Assembly: GCF_000317145.1 (NCBI RefSeq)
Contig: NC_019697.1
Coordinates: forward strand, 4,414,886-4,478,885
From: Chamaesiphon minutus PCC 6605
GTDB taxonomy: Bacteria; Cyanobacteriota; Cyanobacteriia; Cyanobacteriales; Chamaesiphonaceae
Length of the DNA: 64,000 nucleotides
Direction: 5' to 3'
Shown here piece by piece: positions 7,783 through 50,737 of this stretch. The position numbers were made by a program, and so were the translations under genes. The notes below the pieces were generated by a model. The model was not told where the DNA came from, did no database searches, and saw only the letters and a program-made list of their open reading frames with translations. Within the stretch, counting starts at the first letter, position 1, and every line of letters begins with the position of its first letter.

Positions 7783-10101
7783 TTAACGGAATTTACTGTA
7801 GGTCATACGTTCTATCGTGTGCTCGACTTCGTAGGAATAATCCTCATCATCCTCATCAGCATCGTCTTCGTCAACAATTGGTTGAGGTGGAGATACGGTT
7901 ACTTCGAGGGAGACAGACAGTTGCTCTACCTGAGGTTTCGATCCACTGTTGGCTAGAGCTATCGATATATCATCTAGGTATGACTCTTTCACCACAGGTT
8001 TGGAGGCATTTCTGTGACGATCCTCCTCATAACGAGCTGGAGCGGGATTGACCTTTGCATCCTCAACGTTGCGGCGATCGCTTCTTGTTAAATTCTGCTT
8101 GTTGGCGAAGAGTTTTCTACGGCGGATAGTTTCTTCCCGAATAGCGACATTATTGATCTGTTTACCAGCAAGTTTGAGCTTCTTGACCGAGTGTCTGACA
8201 TCTTCAAGTGATAACCGATCTGCTTCTAACCCTACAGCGCAAGCGCGAGAGATGAACTTTTCTCGGCCATCTCGGTGACTGTAAACCAACAGCATCGTAA
8301 TATCCCTGGGGTCAAATTTCAAAAAAACTTCATTGCCAACGTGTTGCCCTAAGTACTCCCCTTTATAGAGTAGATTCTCAAACTTGATATAGCCACCGTC
8401 GTAAACAACACGCTCATTTGTTTGCATCAGACAAATGTCGAGTTCTCGTGGTTTAATTACCGCAGGTGGAGTCTGTAATCCAGCCTCCCACCGTTTCATG
8501 CGACTTTGTTCGGGCGCGAAAGGGTTGGCTCTGGTACGCGGATCGGGTTTTTGATTATAGTTATCAACAAGATATCCAACTAAAACCATTTCTAAATCTC
8601 GCAGTGTCATTTTGACAACCTTTGCAATATCTTTTGGACGCTTTTGGACATTAGGACCCGTGTAAGCTGGAGCTTCACTCAAAAGTTCGCTTACAGTACG
8701 GAAAGGACGCTCGACAATTCCACCTTGAGAGGGCTGTTCTCGACGTTTTGCTTCAAAGCCTAGCTGATCGCCCACGTACACTAAGAAATTAAAGTCTTTA
8801 CCACCATCTGTATAGATGTATCGAGGAGAGCCATGCGTTATCCAATTACATCTTAGCTGGTATTCTGGAGCATATTGCTTGGGTCGCATCGCGTGTCGCA
8901 AAGCTAGGGCAACCACCAGAGAACTGGGTGCTTTGAGTCCTAGTCGATACCCCACAATGCAACGTGAGTAGCAATCAATCACTGTAGTAAGAATCGGACG
9001 ACCAATATCCACACCATCCTCATCAACAAGTAATATATCTGCTTTAGTGTGATCGATTTGCCAAACTTGATTGCTGCGAGTGACGGAGATATTCTCCTGG
9101 TCGCGAGTTCTGAGAATTAAGGTATCGCCGTGCCATCCGGGACTGCGACTACTTTTTGCGGTATTGTTGCTCTCTTCAATTGGCTTCAACCAAATTTCTA
9201 CGGTTCTAGTACAGGGGGGTTGACCGTATTTCCGCCAAAACTCGAATGCTACGAGCGACTGCTTCTGCTCCTCAAGTTTCATGATGCACTTATGCACTTC
9301 CTGTGTATCCAGCTTTCGTTTCCGTAGCTCAGAGAGCTTAGTCTTTAGGTCTGAGATTTGTGTCTGAATCTCACGCCTGTGCTCGTTACAAATCTGCTTA
9401 CGTTCTTCAATTAACCTTGAAAGTTCTAGATCGAGTTCTTCCTTATCAAAGCCTGCTGCCTCCAATCTGGCGACTTCATCTGACAACTCCAGCTTCACAT
9501 ACTCATAAATCTGGTCTTCAATATGGCTCACAGCTTGAGTACGAGTCATTAATTTGTCACCCTTGTTCCCTCCCTCGTAAATCTTGAGACTTAGGTTATA
9601 CCAATATTCGCTCCGACGAGGTTGGCCAACATCTGCTCTTTTTGCTTTGAAGAATGAAGCCGTACCCAACTCAATCCAGTCTTGAAAAATACGTCTGACT
9701 TGGCGGGTCGATTTCTTTAGCCTCTTTGCTCCTTCTCTAAGTTGTTCGCAGAATAAGTTACGGTTGTTTCGTGCGGCTAAGAGGTTACGGATGACATCTC
9801 GTTTTAACTTTTGCTCGTCCGTCAATTGGAGCCTAACTTTTTCTCCATTTTCAAGCGTGATTTCGTCTTCCAACGCGTATCGACGGTCTAGAAACTCGAT
9901 CCCTTCATCATCTTCTGGTGTGCCATAGCAGGCGATCGACTCTTCCGAGGGCTGGTAAGCGATCTTTTGCCGATCGGTCGCCAATTCTTCTTCATCAGCA
10001 ATTAGAGGTTCCTCAGTATCAAAATTTTCATCCTCATAGATCGAAGAAAAATCGTTGTCATTTAACCGATCGGAATGCTCATTGGCTTCAGTCAGGGTCA
10101 T
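7783..10101 (-). CDS. tnsB: Tn7/Tn5053-like DDE transposase (TnsB/TniA type)
   Basis: 772 residues, longer than the roughly 580-700 of most TnsB/TniA proteins because of an acidic N-terminal extension (about 1-70) and an acidic C-terminal tail (EDDADEDDEDYSYE). Helix-turn-helix-like DNA-binding regions occupy about 90-330, with a charged coiled stretch near 215-285. The rve-type core follows, with catalytic residues in WQIDHTKAD (about D350), YIYTDGGKDF (about D432) and QGGIVERPFRT (about E464). A Mu-transposase-like beta-barrel domain (GGYIKFENLLYKGEYLGQHV) comes after. TnsB binds the transposon ends and performs strand transfer. The start has GGAG four bases upstream. No intact TnsC, TniQ, TnsA, Cas or CRISPR is in the window, so the target-selection mode is unknown. 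Confidence 0.9.
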   Translation of the reverse strand: MTLTEANEHSDRLNDNDFSSIYEDENFDTEEPLIADEEELATDRQKIAYQPSEESIACYGTPEDDEGIEFLDRRYALEDEITLENGEKVRLQLTDEQKLKRDVIRNLLAARNNRNLFCEQLREGAKRLKKSTRQVRRIFQDWIELGTASFFKAKRADVGQPRRSEYWYNLSLKIYEGGNKGDKLMTRTQAVSHIEDQIYEYVKLELSDEVARLEAAGFDKEELDLELSRLIEERKQICNEHRREIQTQISDLKTKLSELRKRKLDTQEVHKCIMKLEEQKQSLVAFEFWRKYGQPPCTRTVEIWLKPIEESNNTAKSSRSPGWHGDTLILRTRDQENISVTRSNQVWQIDHTKADILLVDEDGVDIGRPILTTVIDCYSRCIVGYRLGLKAPSSLVVALALRHAMRPKQYAPEYQLRCNWITHGSPRYIYTDGGKDFNFLVYVGDQLGFEAKRREQPSQGGIVERPFRTVSELLSEAPAYTGPNVQKRPKDIAKVVKMTLRDLEMVLVGYLVDNYNQKPDPRTRANPFAPEQSRMKRWEAGLQTPPAVIKPRELDICLMQTNERVVYDGGYIKFENLLYKGEYLGQHVGNEVFLKFDPRDITMLLVYSHRDGREKFISRACAVGLEADRLSLEDVRHSVKKLKLAGKQINNVAIREETIRRRKLFANKQNLTRSDRRNVEDAKVNPAPARYEEDRHRNASKPVVKESYLDDISIALANSGSKPQVEQLSVSLEVTVSPPQPIVDEDDADEDDEDYSYEVEHTIERMTYSKFR

Positions 10102-40573: not shown

Positions 40574-41056
40574 TTACGTGCTTGGATTGCGACCATTTTT
40601 AGCAGTAATAATTTCAACTGGGCGTAAGATCTTGTCACCATAGCGGAAGCCTTGACGGACGACTTTAGTAATTGTTTGGTCTGCGAGATCGGTTCTGTCT
40701 TCGCGTCCTACTACTTGACAGCAACTAAAATCGGGTGTGGTTTGTTCGAGAGCTATCGGTGTTACCTGTTGTCTGTCTAACGCGATCGATAATTTTTGTT
40801 GAATTGCTGCTAACGATTTAGGTAAGCGTTTGATGAATTGAGGCGAAATATTTGAATTATTTTTTAAATAATCGATCGGATATTCTAACGCGTCGAATAC
40901 CTCCAAAAACTCTAGAAACATTCGTTCTTTCTCAGCTTGAAAATTTTGTTCTTGCTGGCGTAATGCTTGCTTTAATTCTTCTAACTGTTTGGCATCGGCT
41001 TTTAGTTTATGTTCGAGTTGTAATTTATTATCGGCACTTAACTCAAATTTAATCAC
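40574..41056 (-). CDS. grpE: GrpE-like nucleotide exchange factor
   Basis: 160 residues. An N-terminal coiled coil (LQLEHKLKADAKQLEELKQA and EQNFQAEKERMFLEFLEVFD) is followed by a short beta domain ending in VVRQGFRYGDKILRPVEIIT, the GrpE signature. The usual acidic N-terminal extension and the long helical FENYRKR-type segment are reduced, so this is a divergent paralogue, not the housekeeping GrpE. It closes the five-gene Hsp70 cassette; a palindromic repeat separates it from the J-like gene. Confidence 0.85.
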   Translation of the reverse strand: MIKFELSADNKLQLEHKLKADAKQLEELKQALRQQEQNFQAEKERMFLEFLEVFDALEYPIDYLKNNSNISPQFIKRLPKSLAAIQQKLSIALDRQQVTPIALEQTTPDFSCCQVVGREDRTDLADQTITKVVRQGFRYGDKILRPVEIITAKNGRNPST

Positions 41057-41106
41057 GATCGCGTCCTACTATAATTTTGGTGAAAAGTGGTGAAGCTGGG
41101 TAATAC

Positions 41107-41225
41107 GTTTCAGTTAGTCCGCGTAGGCGGCGCGCGCACGCCTTTGTTTCCCGCCCATGGAAGCGAGACAAGACAGACAGCAGATTTTGCATCACTAGCG
41201 GCGACTTCAGTCGCTGACTAACTGT
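41107..41225. repeat. Palindromic interspersed repeat, copy 3
   Basis: Arms CAGTTAG (near 41112) and CTAACTG (near 41216) flank AGCGAGACAAGACAG and CAGATTTTGCATCACTAGCG, which match modules in copies 1 and 2. It sits between the grpE-like and J-like genes and could weaken read-through or stabilise mRNA ends. Confidence 0.65.
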
Positions 41226-41238
41226 CTAGTACTAGAAA

Positions 41239-41589
41239 TTAAAATAAAGCACTGCCGAGTTGTCTGTCGATTTCAGAGACTTCGTCAGCATCGGCAATCG
41301 ATTCCTCTAATCGATCGAATTCAGATAGCCAATCGATAGTCGGTACTGGTTCATCTAAGGCTATAAAATCTTGACACTTAAACTGATTTATAGTTGGTAA
41401 AACCGGACGCAGATAATCGGCAACAATTCGCTCTTCAGGGTTCATTAAACTCTTGCGAGCTTTGGCAATTGCATCTGGAGAATATTTGCGATGCTTCATA
41501 GCAATCGCGAATGATTTGGTAATTTCCGCATTAGAAGCAGTTTGCGATACGCTCAAAACATCGTAAGCATTAGCTAGATTTGTTTCCAT
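41239..41589 (-). CDS. J-domain-like protein lacking HPD
   Basis: 116 residues. The N-terminal 60 residues align with a J domain: NAYDVLSVSQTASNAEITKS, then KHRKYSPDAIAKARKSLMNP, where the HPD loop and helix III would be. HPD itself is absent; H and PD are split by RKYS. The remainder is acidic (DWLSEFDRLEESIADADEVS). J proteins pass clients to Hsp70 and trigger its ATPase through HPD, so this one either does so in another way or only binds. It starts 10 bp after the TPR gene stop. Confidence 0.7.
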   Translation of the reverse strand: METNLANAYDVLSVSQTASNAEITKSFAIAMKHRKYSPDAIAKARKSLMNPEERIVADYLRPVLPTINQFKCQDFIALDEPVPTIDWLSEFDRLEESIADADEVSEIDRQLGSALF

Positions 41590-41599
41590 AAAAATCTGA

Positions 41600-43912
41600 T
41601 TAATTTAGTCCTAGACTGTGATAAACTTCCATGAATGCAGGTTCGTAGGGACAGATTTCTTGTGCCCAACTTACTAATTGGAAGATCTCTTCTCGACTCG
41701 ATCGCCGATTTCTCGCCCCTTCGATCGATGCGTCGATTAAAATTTCAGCAATCCGAAATTTTACTTCTTGACGAGTTGAAAATTTAGCACGTCTGACTGC
41801 TTCTTCTAGGCGATTTTTCTGAATTAAATCGATGATACTATTTGTCTCTCGAACGATTTCAATTTTGGCGATCGTGTCGATGACAACCGGATTAATATCG
41901 TCAAGTTTCTTAAGTTGCAGAAGTTGGGTGAGTCCTTCATCTAAAGTAATTTGTTCTTCAGCTAATTTGCTGCTAACTTGCATTGCTTTATATTCTGCTA
42001 AATAACTACCCGCAAGTCTACTAGCTACTAAATCATACCAAAACTGTGCGAATTCAAGGTGTTCTTCAAATTCATCGATCTCTTGACGTTGCTTGACACA
42101 CAGCCGATCGATTTCGTCGATCGAATTAGCAAAATCACTAATTTCTGCTCGAACTTGGTTGAACGATTTGATTGCTTTACGCCATTTGCACTGTTGTAGA
42201 TAATAACAACCTTCATGATAAGTAATGAAGGAGTTAGCGGATTTTTCAGCTACAGAAACAGAACTAATTTGCGGTTTAATTTGGAGCGCGCGATCGGTAT
42301 CACCTTCGATACAAGCTGCCACTGCTGGCCCCCAGTTAGTGTATAATCGACTCCAAGGTTCGGCGGGAAGTTCGGACTGTGGTAGGGTATTAATGTGGCG
42401 TTGATAACATCCTGGTAGCAGTAGAACTTGGTTGACTCTGACTCCAGTATGGGGCAGATTTTTAGTCAGGCGGAGAGTGACAATCTGCCAACGATATAAG
42501 TCTCGTAATTGGAGGTAGCGGTCGGGATTTTTATCCTTAATCGGGTCGATTAATTTTTCTAACAATTCGATTAGCTTTTCTGAAACTTCATCTAAATTAG
42601 GTGGTAGATTAGTGAGCCACGGGATATCTTTTAGTGCTGGATCGCGATCTATATTAGCTAGAGCTGTAGAGCAAGCTATAATTAATTCAGCAATTTTATC
42701 TGGATCTTTATGAGCCTGATAGTAGCTAGCTACAGCCCAATTATGTAAAGAAGACATATCTTGACTCTCCAGCCAAAATTGCTCGGCTGTGGTGGCGATG
42801 AGGCTCCAGTCTAAAGTTTTCCAAATATTGGTTTCGAGTAGGGGTTGAATATGTTCATAGAGATTATTTTCGACTACGGGATCGATACCAAATTTATTGA
42901 TAAATTGTAGACTAGTTTGCTTTGCTCGATCGAGATTGCCATCATCGACAAATTGCTCGATCTTTTGCATTGTTAACAGCCGATCTTGGCGAGCAAGGGT
43001 TCTGAGGTATTGACGTTGAGATTTCACTTCTGGATGCGATAAAGAGTTCCATTCTTTATCCGCTTGTCGCCAGTTACTTTGCATAATGCAAGCAAACCCG
43101 CGCAGATAAGCCGCGCGTTCGCCATCGACATTATCTAAGTAATTTAGCACCTCTGCTACATCCCCACTTTTAATCGCCGCAATTGCCATTCTAATGCGAC
43201 ATTCTGGTAAATTTGGTGTGATATCTAAAACTTGTTGATAATATTGTTTGGCATCATTTAATTTACCGCTTTCCTCTAGTTGTAGTCCTTTATTAAATGT
43301 TTGTTTAACCTCAAATGCTTGCTTTAATTTATTTAATAATGTCGTACCATCGATGCGGTCGAATTCAATTAAAATAGGTTTAAGTAAATTGACTGCTGAT
43401 TGAAATTTGCCAGCTCGTGCTAGTATTGTTGACCGCTCTAAATTCTGTTCGTATTGTTTCTGAACTTTAACTTGAGAATCACATTTAATAATTAATGCTG
43501 CAACTTCATTAGTAGAAAATAAGTGCTGAGCTTTTAGGAAAGTAGCTAGTGCCAGGTCGAAGTATTTATCATCAATCTGCTTTTTACCTAGATAATACAA
43601 TATTTTAAAATGCTGACGACGCTCGATCTCTCGATCGAGAAGAGCGGTTGCATTTAGATAAGTATTTTTATTGAAGATTTTAAAATTAGCAGCAATTTGA
43701 AGCCAGGGAGACTTCAGCAATAACCGATTACATTGCTCGTAAAGCTTCACTGACTGCTCTAATCGATCGAGTTCGAGCGGATTGCCGCGATCTTTATTTT
43801 TAACAGTCTCAGCACGAGCGAATATTTCTGATAATTTGGCTAGTTCGGAGCTAATAATTATTGCAATCGAAATAGCACCAATAACAATAGTGAATAATAA
43901 TAAGATTAACAT
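41600..43912 (-). CDS. Membrane-anchored TPR-like protein of the Hsp70 cassette
   Basis: 770 residues. The first 22 residues are hydrophobic (MLILLLFTIVIGAISIAIII), a signal anchor. The rest is all-helical with TPR-like units, for example FDLALATFLKAQHLFSTNEV, GKFQSAVNLLKPILIEFDRI, GKLNDAKQYYQQVLDITPNL and CKWRKAIKSFNQVRAEISD. No enzyme motif is seen. It lies seven bases after the LysM gene and ten before the J-like gene, so it is part of one transcript. A scaffold role for the Hsp70 is an inference. Confidence 0.75.
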   Translation of the reverse strand: MLILLLFTIVIGAISIAIIISSELAKLSEIFARAETVKNKDRGNPLELDRLEQSVKLYEQCNRLLLKSPWLQIAANFKIFNKNTYLNATALLDREIERRQHFKILYYLGKKQIDDKYFDLALATFLKAQHLFSTNEVAALIIKCDSQVKVQKQYEQNLERSTILARAGKFQSAVNLLKPILIEFDRIDGTTLLNKLKQAFEVKQTFNKGLQLEESGKLNDAKQYYQQVLDITPNLPECRIRMAIAAIKSGDVAEVLNYLDNVDGERAAYLRGFACIMQSNWRQADKEWNSLSHPEVKSQRQYLRTLARQDRLLTMQKIEQFVDDGNLDRAKQTSLQFINKFGIDPVVENNLYEHIQPLLETNIWKTLDWSLIATTAEQFWLESQDMSSLHNWAVASYYQAHKDPDKIAELIIACSTALANIDRDPALKDIPWLTNLPPNLDEVSEKLIELLEKLIDPIKDKNPDRYLQLRDLYRWQIVTLRLTKNLPHTGVRVNQVLLLPGCYQRHINTLPQSELPAEPWSRLYTNWGPAVAACIEGDTDRALQIKPQISSVSVAEKSANSFITYHEGCYYLQQCKWRKAIKSFNQVRAEISDFANSIDEIDRLCVKQRQEIDEFEEHLEFAQFWYDLVASRLAGSYLAEYKAMQVSSKLAEEQITLDEGLTQLLQLKKLDDINPVVIDTIAKIEIVRETNSIIDLIQKNRLEEAVRRAKFSTRQEVKFRIAEILIDASIEGARNRRSSREEIFQLVSWAQEICPYEPAFMEVYHSLGLN

Positions 43913-43919
43913 AAATTAC

Positions 43920-44438
43920 TCAATCGCAGGCTTGATAGAGTTTAGGTATTAATATTTTTTCGTCTAAATCGATATCGTTTTCTCTACCTTGTAATTGAGC
44001 ATTACTCTGGATAATGAGCTGAGATTTTTGGATATCGCCATAAAACTGTCGGGCAATCTTCGATAAAGAATCTCCGTGACGAACGGTATAATAAAATTCG
44101 TGCGTACAAGGATAAGCATTAGTCATTTTAGATTCAACTGGAGGTGAAGATGGTTGAATATTGATAGCCATCGTGGGAGTTATTGCTGTCGCGATCGATT
44201 TTGGTGGCTGTTGAGATAATAAAGCACCTCCGGCTGCACCTAAACTAATCCCAATTGTAAATGCAGCAAAAACGATCGATAATAGCCACATTTTGATAGT
44301 CGATCCCAAAGATTTTTGAGGCACAACTATTGGTAATTCGGCAAGCATTCGCAAAGTGGATAGATCGGTCTCACAATTGGGGCAAATATTGCGATCGATT
44401 CCCGATCGATCGCAGACAGGACAGGTTAGCTCGCTCAT
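43920..44438 (-). CDS. Zinc-ribbon, single TM, LysM protein
   Basis: 172 residues. The N-terminal zinc ribbon has CPVCDRSGIDRNICPNCETD. One membrane helix follows at about 50-75 (WLLSIVFAAFTIGISLGAAG). A LysM domain closes it: YYTVRHGDSLSKIARQFYGD, then ILIPKLYQA. LysM domains bind peptidoglycan or related glycans, so the C-terminus should be on the periplasmic side and the zinc ribbon in the cytosol. Its start codon overlaps the dnaK-like stop by one base (TAATG on the coding strand), which implies translational coupling. Confidence 0.85.
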   Translation of the reverse strand: MSELTCPVCDRSGIDRNICPNCETDLSTLRMLAELPIVVPQKSLGSTIKMWLLSIVFAAFTIGISLGAAGGALLSQQPPKSIATAITPTMAINIQPSSPPVESKMTNAYPCTHEFYYTVRHGDSLSKIARQFYGDIQKSQLIIQSNAQLQGRENDIDLDEKILIPKLYQACD

Positions 44439-46630
44439 TATTTGATTCCGATGGCAATCGCTTTAGCAGGTAAGTCTCGATCTAGATATTGTCTGACATC
44501 TGGCAATAATTCTTGTAATGTTTGCTCGGCTTGGTAAGTATTTCCGCGTTCGATCGCATTACACATTTGGTCTAATTTATGCCGCATTACATTAGCTTGC
44601 AAGGGGTTAATCGATCGTGCTTGCGAAATAGCATCCGCACATACCGATATAAATTTGACTAATTCTGGAAGCTGCTCGAATTCGCGGGTGGCATCGGCAC
44701 TGAGTTCGCGCACTACTTCTAGATTACTATCGGCAATTGCTTTCTTTAATTGGTCGCAAAGGCTAATAATCTTCCCTTTTTGCTCTTCAGAAATCAGCGA
44801 AGGGCAAACATGCAGCACAAAGCCTAAATCTGAGACTAAGGATTGGGCGAGATTATAATCGTTAGATGCTAACTTTTCTAGCTCTTTTAATTTCTGTCGG
44901 GCGAGCTGGCGACGGTCTTCCGCGATCTGACCATCGCGATCGCGAATTTGATTGGTAGCCTGAACTGTCTCGCCAGCAATTCGATAAGCTTCTCGCACAC
45001 CACGCTCGGTCAATCGACCTTCATCGTTTAAGTCTTTAATGATTTGCTCGACTTTTTGAGCAATTTTTTCATCTTCGCCACCATAAGAAAAAGACGAACT
45101 TACTACGATCTTAGGATTATTTTTTAAAGCGGCCGTGATTTGAAGCGAACTATTTTTTTCATCTAATTCTACAGTTACTGCTACTTCAGTTTGCTCCGGA
45201 TAAGGTCGATCTAGTGCCAACCACATTTCGCCAATCTTTTCATTTTGTTGATTGACAAGATCGGTATTAAAAAATTTAAAGTGAATCAAACTCTGGCCGT
45301 CTGCTTCGGTTTTAAACGTATAGTTGTTACTAACTGGTAAAATATCACCCTGCTGGATAATTTTGTAATGAGTGCGATCGGCTAGTTCGATGAAGTAATC
45401 GCGCGAAACCGTGCCGACTTTCTCTGTCAATCCTGCCGCTACGATGGCTGCACCTTCAGCCACGGCATACATGGGACGCGGGTGAACGACAACTTTATCT
45501 GCGCCGAAGGCGGCTTTAACCCGTTCTTGGACGAGCGGAATTTGCGAAGAACCGCCCACCATCAAGATTGTATCGATCGCATCGGCTGGATAGTCAGAAT
45601 ATTTAATCGCCTCTTGACAAATCGAGATCGTGCGCTCGACTAGCGGCAAAATCATCGCTTCAAATTGGGCGCGCGTCACGGTCACATCGATCGGGATCGC
45701 CATCCCCAGATCGTCGAGTAGCGGTGTCGCGGGAATAATTTTGGCAGTGAGGGAACTACTGAGATCTATTTTGGCTTTCTCTACTGCCATTTTGAGATCG
45801 CCCAAAAATCGCACTTTTTGATAGTGAGGCATTCGCTCGATTAAACTATCTATATTCTCCAAATCTTCTTCAGCAGCGACTTGTTGTTTGACTAGCTCGA
45901 TAATGCGATCGTCGATATCATCGCCACCCAGCCACAGATCTCCGGCTTTACCAGATTCGATAAATTGGGTTCCCGCCGCCGTAATCAGAGCTGAGTCAAA
46001 AGTACCGCCGCCAAAGTCATATACCAAAATTGTTTTGACATCATCAGCGTTAGGTTTGAAACCATAAGAAATAGCAGCGGCTGTCGGTTCTGGTAAAAGT
46101 TCTGGCTCTGAAAGACCCGCTCTTTTGGCGGCAGATTGAGTTGTATAGCGTTGTTTGTCGCTAAAGTAAGCCGGAACGGTAATTACCGCCCGATCGATCG
46201 TACTTTTTTGCCCTTTTTGGCTTTGGTAAAGTTGAGCGTTTTGAACGACTTTTTTTAGGATTTCGGCGGAAATATCTTCGGGTGCGTACTCTGTGCCACC
46301 CAGCCAGACGGATAGACTATTATCTGTGCCTTTGGTCGATTGAGTTACTTGATAATGTAACCTGGCTAATTGTGCTTGGACGACAGGATCGCTAAAACCG
46401 CGTCCGATCAGCCGTTTGATCGAAATAATCGTCTGCTCCGGATCGGCTTTTAGTTGGTTGTAGGCTGTTTCGCCCACAATGATGCCATTTTGCGTAGTGG
46501 CGACGACAGAGCGAGTTAATTTGCGATCGGGAGCTTGATTGTCATCAGCCGTAACTACCTCTACCTCCGCAAATTTGAAAGCAGCAACAGAATTGGTTGT
46601 GCCTAGATCGATCCCAACTATATTTCCCAT
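44438..46630 (-). CDS. Divergent Hsp70 (DnaK-like) chaperone
   Basis: 730 residues, about 100 more than housekeeping DnaK. The ATPase domain is complete: GIVGIDLGTTNS-like start (IVGIDLGTTNSVAAFKFAE), VPAYFSDKQRYTTQSAAKRA, LLPEPTAAAISYG, VYDFGGGTFDSALI and MVGGSSQIPLVQERVKAAFG. The substrate domain is shortened and divergent (LQITAALKNNPKIVVSSSFS). The C-terminal 200 residues are helical with no DnaK lid-tail or EEVD-like end. It leads a cassette with LysM, TPR, J-like and GrpE-like genes. It is a specialised paralogue; clients are unknown. Confidence 0.92.
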   Translation of the reverse strand: MGNIVGIDLGTTNSVAAFKFAEVEVVTADDNQAPDRKLTRSVVATTQNGIIVGETAYNQLKADPEQTIISIKRLIGRGFSDPVVQAQLARLHYQVTQSTKGTDNSLSVWLGGTEYAPEDISAEILKKVVQNAQLYQSQKGQKSTIDRAVITVPAYFSDKQRYTTQSAAKRAGLSEPELLPEPTAAAISYGFKPNADDVKTILVYDFGGGTFDSALITAAGTQFIESGKAGDLWLGGDDIDDRIIELVKQQVAAEEDLENIDSLIERMPHYQKVRFLGDLKMAVEKAKIDLSSSLTAKIIPATPLLDDLGMAIPIDVTVTRAQFEAMILPLVERTISICQEAIKYSDYPADAIDTILMVGGSSQIPLVQERVKAAFGADKVVVHPRPMYAVAEGAAIVAAGLTEKVGTVSRDYFIELADRTHYKIIQQGDILPVSNNYTFKTEADGQSLIHFKFFNTDLVNQQNEKIGEMWLALDRPYPEQTEVAVTVELDEKNSSLQITAALKNNPKIVVSSSFSYGGEDEKIAQKVEQIIKDLNDEGRLTERGVREAYRIAGETVQATNQIRDRDGQIAEDRRQLARQKLKELEKLASNDYNLAQSLVSDLGFVLHVCPSLISEEQKGKIISLCDQLKKAIADSNLEVVRELSADATREFEQLPELVKFISVCADAISQARSINPLQANVMRHKLDQMCNAIERGNTYQAEQTLQELLPDVRQYLDRDLPAKAIAIGIK

Positions 46631-46756: not shown

Positions 46757-46927
46757 CTAAAACCTAAAACCTAAAACCTAAAACCTAAAACCTAAAACCT
46801 AAAACCTAAAACCTAAAACCTAAAACCTAAAACCTAAAACCTAAAACCTAAAACCTAAAACCTAAAACCTAAAACCTAAAACCTAAAGCCTAAAGCCTAA
46901 AACCTAAAGCCTAAAACCTAAAGCCTA
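46757..46927. repeat. Heptamer tandem array (CCTAAAA)n, about 24 copies
   Basis: From 46757 the sequence is AAAACCT repeated with period 7. The copies near 46887-46924 include CCTAAAG variants. The array ends inside the stop codon (TAG on the minus strand, 46925-46927) of the hybrid kinase gene. It resembles cyanobacterial STRR heptamers and, by chance, telomere-like repeats. The 3' end of the kinase mRNA and the upstream region of the dnaK-like gene share it. Confidence 0.97.
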
Positions 46928-49900
46928 TTCCCTCAATTTATTGGCACCAGAGGTAATCGCATGTGTGAGATCTTCGATCTCAGTGAGGAGGGGATCGATA
47001 GCAGTGGGGGAACTAAGGGTATTTTGCTCGAAAGTGTCGATTTCTAGGAGTTTTTCTAATTGGATGGCTAATTGTTCGATCGGTTTGGCTGTGGTGGCGG
47101 TAATTGCCACTGCACCGACGTTTGCGCTAGCTCCTTTGATAGCGTGGAGGTGGTGCTCGATCGTGCCAAGATCGCCAGCGGCTATCGCGGCGCGGATCAG
47201 TCGGAGTTGTTCGCGGGTATTTTCGACAAAGACTTGTAAGATCGCCCGTTCAAACTCAGCATCGTTAGTAGATACTTCTGCGTATTTTGATTCTCCAGAT
47301 GGTGCGGGTGACTCGCTGGTAGCGATCGAATCTGGCGGTGGAGTCTCTACGGTCAGATCTGCTGGCTGGGGTGTGGCATCGCTAGCAGGCTGCGGCGTCG
47401 AGATTTGTTGCGTCCACTGGGCGATTTTGGTCGATAGCTCGTCTTTGCGAACGGGTTTGGACAAAAAGTCATCCATGCCTGCTAACATGGCTAATTCGCG
47501 ATCTTCCTTCATCGCGCTAGCAGTGAGGGCGATAATAATCGTATGGCGCGCTTTACCTTCACGCAGCCGGATTTCTCTGGTGGCGGCGTAGCCGTCGAGC
47601 CGAGGCATGTGGCAATCCATTAAAATTGCATCGTAATCTTGGGTAGCAATTTTGTCGAGTACTTCCTCGCCATCGCAGGCCAGATCGGCGGCGTAGCCTA
47701 AATTTTTGAGTTGGTTCAGGGCAACTTTTTGATTGACCTTATTATCTTCGGCTACCAAAATTCGCAGGCTAGAACTAACTTGTTGGGGGAGGAGTAGTTG
47801 TTGGGGTTGGGACTCGGTGACGCTGGATAATGCTTGCGGTTGGGGTTCGGGGAGAAGATGTTGTGGCTCGATGCAACGATTGAGGATCTGCATCGGTTTT
47901 GCTGGTTTGAAGGCATAGCCAGCGATTTTCGATTTTTGCTGGAGCTGTGAGGCGCGTTCGTATTCGTTGAATGAGATCGTCGCGATCGTCCGCAGATTAC
48001 TGAGTTCGGGATAGTGCGATATCTGCTCTGGGAGAGTGGTATTAGGGCTGTCAGGGTATGCTAAATCTGTTACTAGGGTTTGGAAAGGTTTGCCCATCAC
48101 TGCGGCGGCTAGGAGCAGATTCATGGCTGCGGTGCTAGTGGTGGTAGTGGTGACGATCGCCCCATGGTGTTCTGCTGCTGAGGCGATCGCGTGGCGACTG
48201 TGATCCCAGTTGCCAGCAATCAATAAGCGTTGTCCCTGAATGCCTTGGGCGAGTTGGCGACTGAGTGCCAATTCGTCGCCCACATCAGCGGGGAGAATCG
48301 ATCGCGAGCAAGTGAGGGTAAACCAAAAGATCGAACCCGCATCTGGCGCGCTGATCACGCCAATTTCACCACCCATCATTTCGATCAATCGTTTAGAAAT
48401 TGCCAAGCCCAAACCCGTACCGCCATATTGTCTGGTGGTGGATGAATCGGCTTGAGAGAAGGATTGAAAAATTTTGTCTTGACTATCTAGATCGATACCG
48501 ATCCCCGTATCTTGAACTTGGAAATAGAGCGTTGTCTGTCGAGCCGTAGTTGCGATCGCGCTAATATCGATCGAGACGCCCCCGCGATCGGTAAATTTGA
48601 TGGCATTACCGATTAAGTTGGTTAGAATCTGCCCCAGTCGCGTCGGATCGCCTTGCAAGTTATTAGGGATAGTCGGTTCGACCCGACAGCTTAGTTCGAT
48701 CCCTTTGGAATAAGCATTATTTGCCAGGACTTCGATCGTTTGCTCGACAGCATCAGTCAAGCTAAAGTTAATTTCTTCAAGATGCAGCTCGCCAGCTTCA
48801 ATTTTTGAGAAATCTAAGATTTCATTAATAATATTCAACAAGTTATCAGAGCTACCTCTGATAATCTCGACGAAATTACGTTGCTCTTCATTGAGATTGG
48901 TATCTAATAGTAGCTCGGTAAAGCTGATGATACCATTCATCGGCGTGCGAATTTCATGGCTCATATTTGCCAAGAAAGCACTCTTCATCTTACCCGCAGA
49001 TTCTGCCAACTGACGAGCTTTTTCTAGGGCAATATTTTCTTTGGTTAATTCTTGCCGACTGTGGCGTTCGCGTTCGATTAATAATGATTGTAATTGTTTG
49101 GAAGCGGTAATATCTTCAATTACCAGTAGGAAACCCGACGCGACCGAAATTTCTTTGATTTTCTTACCATCAATGATGTCGCGCTGGATCTCCTGCCAAT
49201 TATACAGAGCTTCTAACTTGAGCGTAAAATATTTACCATTACGCTTGACCTCTTTCGGCGGCAAACTGCGGTAAGTATGTAAATCACTGAGATGATCTTC
49301 CCAATCTTTAGCACTCAACCAATTGGGAATCAAACAGTGTTCGATTTTATCACCGATATTAATACTTAAAAGCTGAGAAGCAACCGAATTACAAAACCAG
49401 ACCGTGCCATCTAACTCGGTCGCCAGCAATCCCATCGACAAGCTGTGTGCGATCGCGGTTTGCGCCGATTGTGCCCGTCCTAATTCTGCTGCTAATGTTG
49501 CTAGTTTAGCGACTTTTCCAACTGGAATTGGCGGAAAAAGGTGCTTATCACCAAACCGAGGCGGGTGAGCGACTAAATTAATTTGATGAGTTTGCCAGAG
49601 TCTGTCAATTTCGCGTTTGACTAAAAAATCTGTATATTGCCGTTCGCAATAAGCTACACCAATAGTCACTAACAAAGCTAAAGTAATTGGTGCCGAAACT
49701 GGCAGCAAATAATTATTAGTCAAGGCAATGATGACGATCGCAATCCAGCCGCTGCTGAGTCCTAACAATCCCAACAATCTTTGACCGGGTGTCAGCCGAC
49801 TGAGTTGGTAACTCAACAGCGGACTAATGAATAATAGTAATACTAGCAGCCAGCGATCGGGTACGATTTGAAGTTGACTGCGTTGGAGTAGATTATCGAC

Positions 49901-50737
49901 GATCGCCGCATGTAAATAAATACTGGGAATTCCGTCAATGCGATCGAAAGGGGTATCGATCCGCATCGCATTACTACCAGTTATACCAACTAAGACAATT
50001 TTATTATTAAATACTTTTTCGAGTCGGGCTTGTTCGATCTCGTCTCTCGGTTCTAAGAGCGAACTCAATGAGTAATGATTGGCTTTAGCCGCTCTACCCG
50101 GCCAATTAATCCAAAATTCGCCCTCATTTGGTGGGCGTTTGATTTCTGGTGCGTTGCTAAGATTGTGCCCTTCTACAGCCATCCAAGCCAATGAATAGAC
50201 ACGGTTTTTGTATGGTAATATTTGCCGCACCACACCATCGTTACTTTTGACTTTATCGACATGCCCGACAGCTTGAGATGAGGCTTTTAAGCGACGCGTG
50301 GGTAAGATTGGCTGATTTTGTCCGTCCCAACTTTGCGCGAGAATTACGGCCTTGTGACCGTTGATCGCCTCGATAAATTCGCCATCATCGGGAGTAATCT
50401 CCCGAAAGATCTGCTCGAAGGCAATCGTACTGGCATTATATTTAGTAAGAAGTTTAACTAATTTGGCGTAGCGAGCGCGATTATTTGGTAAATCTTGGTA
50501 TTGGGCAATACTTCGATCGTCAACTTCGACCACCACTAGTCGATCGTCCCAAGCTCTCTCGCCACGCAACTCTGTCAGTCGATTGTAAGCAAAATCCTCA
50601 ACTGGAGCCGTCGCACCGAGCTGTACTAATGCGATCGCCACTGCGGCAGCGATTGGCCCTGGCAGCCACCGCCAAACAGATCGCAGGTGTTCTGGGATCT
50701 GTGTAGGCACATTGGTAAATCGAGTGAAATAGTTCAA
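46925..50737 (-). CDS. CHASE2 hybrid sensor histidine kinase with REC and HPt
   Basis: 1270 residues. In order: N-terminal membrane helix ([20 protein letters not shown]), extracytoplasmic CHASE2 ([20 protein letters not shown]), three membrane helices near 300-370, a PAS-like region, HisKA with [12 protein letters not shown] (His about 593), HATPase with [10 protein letters not shown] and DTGIGID and [20 protein letters not shown], a degenerate REC, a full REC with [20 protein letters not shown] (Asp about 1041) and an HPt with [17 protein letters not shown] (His about 1198). This is a complete multistep phosphorelay on one chain. The signal is unknown. Confidence 0.95.

Follow-up and report, generated by a model that had tools for sequence, protein, structure and literature searches.

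A conserved five-gene Hsp70 cassette of Chamaesiphon minutus, probably a dedicated membrane-recruited chaperone machine whose Hsp70 has lost the canonical J-protein dock

Analysis of a 64,000-nucleotide stretch of Chamaesiphon DNA (hereafter the window; G000:C1:4414886-4478885, inside a 6.76 Mb genome) revealed a cassette of five genes which, judging from its sequence features, probably encodes a dedicated Hsp70 machine that is insulated from the cell's other chaperones and is brought to the cytoplasmic membrane, on its inner side. The feature that appears most telling, missed by the first-pass annotation, is the loss from the Hsp70 itself of the residues at which J proteins dock. The five open reading frames occupy window positions 40574-46630, with the coordinates and strand given by that annotation, as follows.

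44438..46630, minus strand: cassette Hsp70, 730 aa, with an intact ATPase site and its own C-terminal helical region (Pfam HSP70, 2.8e-95)
43920..44438, minus strand: membrane anchor with a Zn ribbon, a single transmembrane segment (TM) and LysM, 172 aa (Pfam LysM, 1e-4, over cut-off)
41600..43912, minus strand: TPR/alpha-solenoid protein, 770 aa, with an N-terminal TM in C. minutus (Pfam TPR_2, 3.3e-10)
41239..41589, minus strand: J-like protein, 116 aa, with J-domain helices and SPD at the place of HPD (Pfam DnaJ, 3.8e-4, sub-threshold)
40574..41056, minus strand: GrpE-type nucleotide exchange factor, 160 aa, with a GTG start and a short N-terminus (Pfam GrpE, 1.6e-16)

The Hsp70 stop and the start of the Zn-ribbon/LysM gene overlap by one base in the sequence TAATG, and the next two intergenic gaps are 7 bp and 10 bp, exactly as had been reported. 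The J-like and GrpE genes are separated by 182 bp in C. minutus, and a separate grpE promoter could lie inside this gap. The last product is a GrpE by its profile score (60.8 bits, cut-off 25.8) and represents the third GrpE domain of the genome. Elsewhere the C. minutus genome encodes three canonical DnaKs, one of them adjoined by a canonical GrpE gene, and 13 other J-domain matches over the cut-off; the cassette is therefore extra equipment.

Directly upstream of the Hsp70 gene lies an array of 24 copies of the 7-base repeat CTAAAAC (96% matches, window 46757-46927), which reaches into the end of a co-directional gene for a CHASE2 hybrid histidine kinase with receiver and Hpt domains (window 46925-50737). 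This kinase is not kept at the cassette in relatives. Further away, a gene for a TnsB-like transposase (window 7783-10101, Mu-transpos_C 5.2e-15) suggests a Tn7-like element nearby.

The distribution of the cassette was determined with a four-row profile of the TPR protein, searched against 386 Cyanobacteriota genomes, and the surroundings of the matches were then searched with the five window proteins; loci from the unicellular cyanobacterium SU2, an Acaryochloris MAG and C. polymorphus were added. The TPR gene was found in 29 of the 386 genomes, a number unchanged with a larger TPR profile, while a separate Hsp70 profile detected the cassette Hsp70 in 24 genomes belonging to 21 genera (two candidates being scored per genome in the Hsp70 and TPR scans of this cyanobacterial sample) and a J-like profile detected the J-like gene in 28. 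These sets are nested, since all 24 Hsp70 genomes fall within the 28 J-like genomes and these within the 29 TPR genomes, and in 24 of 24 cases the TPR and J-like genes lie beside the cassette Hsp70. The chance of all 24 Hsp70 genomes falling among 29 TPR genomes of 386 is 1.3e-33, a figure that ignores kinship. The additional genomes, with no Hsp70 detected, comprise two contig-edge cases (G070 and G111) and three relics, two of which carry stop codons or lack parts (G368 and G385) and the third of which is a fragment (G237). None of the 386 genomes contained the Hsp70 alone, and none contained the J-like gene without at least remains of the TPR gene.

The order Hsp70, Zn-ribbon, TPR, J-like, GrpE is kept at 25 loci from many families, as predicted by the first-pass annotation, for which loss of gene order in relatives would have counted against its reading. 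At one locus (G026) the Zn-ribbon gene comes first, and the remaining loci are contig-cut or decayed. The start/stop overlap between the Hsp70 and Zn-ribbon genes (-4 or -1) recurs in 14 of 26 loci. Flanking genes are not widely common to the loci, save in one sub-clade of up to six loci, whose shared neighbours include a signal peptidase-like gene; the unit therefore consists of exactly five genes. An attempt to read the function from neighbouring genes was given up, no flanking gene being widely common. Comparison with C. polymorphus, whose cassette Hsp70 is 94-96% identical, yielded dN/dS values of 0.04-0.07 for the Hsp70, 0.25 for the Zn-ribbon protein, 0.15 for the TPR protein, and 0.12 for both the J-like protein and GrpE; these ratios place every one of the five genes under purifying selection. 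The patchy spread (24 of 386 genomes) indicates that the function of the cassette is dispensable. The earlier proposal of a dedicated machine is thus borne out to the extent that the cassette is conserved, sharply bounded and all-or-none.

The cassette Hsp70 is a member of the Hsp70 superfamily, retaining in its nucleotide-binding domain T11, T12, N13, K70, P143, E171, D194 and T199 in 27 of 27 primary copies. The beta substrate-binding domain and helical lid are also present, the Pfam match extending to profile position 574 of 599 and matches to PDB structures running through the substrate-binding domain. It is not a DnaK: it scores far below the NCBIfam DnaK cut-offs, and in a tree comprising 29 cassette rows, 29 canonical cyanobacterial DnaKs and E. 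coli DnaK, HscA and HscC, the cassette rows lie outside the canonical DnaKs, split off by a branch 1.23 long whose SH-aLRT support is 100 (a quick tree method, for which the tool issued a long-branch warning). In E. coli DnaK, R167 contacts the HPD aspartate of the J protein and L391 is contacted by H33 (PMC13012618); R167 also bonds D393 of the linker, and the R167D replacement somewhat raises basal ATPase activity while DnaJ no longer stimulates it effectively (PMC7289447). The dock residues R167, N170 and E217 and the LLLD linker are lost in all 29 cassette Hsp70s. Position 167 is occupied by E in 24 of them and by V, I or K in five, position 170 by P or S, and position 217 by I. The combination of the DnaK linker [11 protein letters not shown] with R167 and N170 occurs in 0 of 29 cassette proteins versus 29 of 29 canonical ones, and the canonical linker [22 protein letters not shown] is replaced by LTEKVGTVSRD-YFIEL, six residues shorter if read by gap placement. 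R167, N170 and LLLD are kept in all 29 canonical DnaKs, in E. coli DnaK and in HscA, and E217 in 28 of the 29; HscC keeps R167, N170, E217 and D393, its difference being confined to LLL. Position D481 is not diagnostic, because it is already N in canonical cyanobacterial DnaKs. A charge swap between E at 167 and linker residue R410 was considered and not adopted, as four lineages have K, V or I with the same linker.

The partner side of this contact is altered as well. The score of the J-like protein below the DnaJ cut-off fits a degenerate J domain, and 27 of 28 homologues match the DnaJ profile weakly. The first-pass annotation noted the lack of HPD in C. minutus, where SPD is present, and this extends to the whole family: HPD occurs in none of 28 homologues, the tripeptide at its place being PVD in seven, SPD in four and scattered in the others. 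Compared with E. coli DnaJ, the loop after this position and helix III are shortened. A structural model built from four sequences, of modest quality, places helices at residues 8-12, 20-33, 38-48 and 51-60; its pLDDT is about 82-85 between residues 11 and 50, and the J-domain matches given by Foldseek are weak (E near 0.1). Some homologues are extended: one (L009:9131-10354) continues beyond the J-like part into a TM and a pair of similar repeats, SPOR-like in appearance but with no Pfam hit at 1e-4, another (L051) has acquired a TM, and a TPR-like tail is also seen.

In two lineages a second cassette Hsp70 copy carrying a C-terminal J-like domain (L049:10593-13016 and L059:10486-12636) stands in place of the stand-alone J-like gene. 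In the tree the second copies pair with the first copies of their respective lineages, so the fusions are separate events; they tie the J-like domain physically to an Hsp70 partner and are taken as direct evidence that the two belong together. The catalytic sites of the second copies are damaged (SKN and NFGGTTFD in one; K70R and GGNTFD in the other), and it is possible that the decayed protein serves as a pseudo-ATPase partner of the first Hsp70.

The first-pass annotation described two membrane-anchored members, one of them with a glycan-binding domain on the far side; the anchoring by the Zn-ribbon protein stands, while the second anchor and the glycan binder are not constant. The four cysteines of the Zn ribbon are invariant across 29 rows, and one TM follows it in every row but the most distant, where it falls below the hydropathy threshold. 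Lysine and arginine residues lie mostly on the Zn-ribbon side, predicting by the positive-inside rule an N-in topology with LysM outside; in C. minutus the far-side location of LysM is indicated by this charge pattern together with a Pfam match over the cut-off. In five of the 29 rows (L013, L047, L053, L062 and L066) LysM is absent or cut, although the L047 and L066 losses may be frame errors, and the Zn ribbon and TM stay, which makes glycan binding an accessory feature. The N-terminal TM of the TPR protein, detected by hydropathy, is found in C. minutus and a few others and is absent in most homologues. Envelope tethering therefore rests mainly on the single TM of the Zn-ribbon protein. The model of the TPR protein is all-helical (mean pLDDT 75.5); its fold search returned generic TPR superhelices alone (TM about 0.15), and a sequence search of solved structures likewise returned generic TPRs.

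On these features, the Zn ribbon and the TPR solenoid would hold the Hsp70, the J-like protein and a client together at the membrane, with LysM tying the site to peptidoglycan in most lineages, though not all. The J-like domain would act as a docking adaptor and not as an ATPase trigger, although it may yet stimulate the Hsp70 through a different mode of binding. Hydrolysis may be constitutively raised, as reported for DnaK R167D, or set off by contact with the client, the TPR protein or the Zn ribbon through the TVSRDY linker, and GrpE would then reset the cycle. The chances appear even that the HPD-R167 contact, on its two sides, and the hydrophobic linker were replaced in concert, with one of these other contacts now triggering hydrolysis. 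By analogy with PilB for DnaK1, an assembly of the envelope or of secretion is the probable client.

A narrower possibility, rated well below even, is that the Hsp70 works as a regulatory scaffold, an ATP-dependent switch or clamp on one envelope motor or enzyme, like the DnaK1-DnaJ3-GrpE set. Cyanobacterial precedent for this exists in PilB contact and polar dynamics (PMC9239167; PMC12288463), the substrate-domain residues of the cassette Hsp70 are freer (M404 and A429 vary), and an insulated Hsp70 might be needed by one or few clients only; but no conserved neighbour gene names such a target, the cassette Hsp70 is not DnaK1 and its substrate-binding domain is retained. This explanation is largely a special case of the insulated machine.

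It is unlikely that the protein is an ordinary Hsp70 paralogue running the textbook J/HPD cycle with another host J protein, the J-like gene being a passenger. The intact ATPase residues and the 13 other J-domain matches of the genome would permit it, but the dock and linker are gone throughout the 29 cassette Hsp70s, and the supposed passenger is kept in every complete cassette, shows a dN/dS of 0.12 in Chamaesiphon and has been fused to an Hsp70 copy twice.

A role in thylakoid biogenesis, which would accord with the thylakoid link reported for cyanobacterial DnaK3 (PMC7281324), is very improbable, and the thylakoid placement that the first-pass annotation offered beside the envelope is disfavoured. 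The entire cassette is present in G026, a genome of another class that is 98% complete and gave no match to Photo_RC, the profile that three photosynthetic genomes do match; the presence of the set in a genome without photosystem II genes speaks against a role confined to thylakoids. In addition, the usual LysM suits the periplasm, not the lumen, and the cassette is absent from most photosynthetic genomes sampled. G026 is the sole carrier among ten genomes of its order, so transfer is possible. After its cassette, on the opposite strand (L069:8005-11830), this non-photosynthetic genome encodes a 612 aa protein, a PP2C protein and a vWA protein, the first being kinase-like by eye with no Pfam hit.

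A biological conflict (defence) module is equally improbable: the patchy spread, the decayed relics and a predicted GAP1-N2 GTPase conflict system with HSP70, GrpE and DnaJ/TPR fusions (PMC7159879) recall it, but PADLOC gave no match beyond a weak TPR, the unit contains no GTPase, effector or nuclease and has no common flanking genes, rapid diversification is absent (Hsp70 dN/dS 0.04), and the TPR gene was not found on plasmids.

If both sides of the contact have indeed been exchanged in this way, the cassette would be an orthogonal Hsp70 system with no cross-talk with the other J proteins of the cell, and a natural orthogonal chaperone would be on offer. To our knowledge, the contact between HPD, R167 and the linker is regarded as a near-universal Hsp70 trigger; a conserved clade with the ATPase kept and the trigger gone on both partners makes alternative driving of an Hsp70 testable, and an all-or-none unit is cleanly deletable. 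In the open-access literature, to which the search was confined, no description of this five-gene cassette and no such membrane-associated Hsp70 machine of cyanobacteria was found.

Among known systems, the cassette resembles the DnaK1-DnaJ3-GrpE set of Nostoc punctiforme and Synechocystis, which acts on the PilB motor and polysaccharide secretion and is likewise a cyanobacterial Hsp70 set with a dedicated link to a membrane machine, with a reported TPR-bearing J partner and GrpE (PMC9239167). However, DnaK1, which has R167 and LLLD, belongs to the canonical DnaKs, and its genes are not those of the cassette; only one GrpE is reported for N. punctiforme (PMC9239167). C. minutus has three canonical DnaKs of its own. 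Identity of the two systems was rejected, given the position of the cassette Hsp70 outside the canonical DnaK clades and its different linker. C. minutus also encodes a 601 aa protein (G000:C1:2858560-2859006; L074:163-1968) in which a type II/IV secretion ATPase domain (T2SSE, 1.9e-45) is fused to a C-terminal GrpE domain (7e-30); by these domains it is an ATPase of the GspE/PilB type that carries a GrpE of its own, which is of interest because of the link between DnaK1, PilB and GrpE. The MxDnaK2-GrpE operon of Myxococcus (PMC11019930) and the HSP70/GrpE neighbourhoods of GAP1-N2 systems (PMC7159879) also combine a specialised Hsp70 with its own GrpE, but the available portions of these reports do not describe a cassette with J-like, Zn-ribbon and TPR members.

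Systems of the HscA/HscB type similarly co-encode one Hsp70 and one partner. HscB-type partners use HPD, and HscA keeps R167, N170 and LLLD, whereas the cassette has neither the dock nor HPD and supplies a GrpE and a membrane anchor of its own. Proteins of the Pam16/Tim16 and ARC6/CPP1 type have a J fold that has lost HPD and serve as adaptors, their cognate Hsp70s being ordinary; the cassette differs from these in having lost the Hsp70 side of the contact too.
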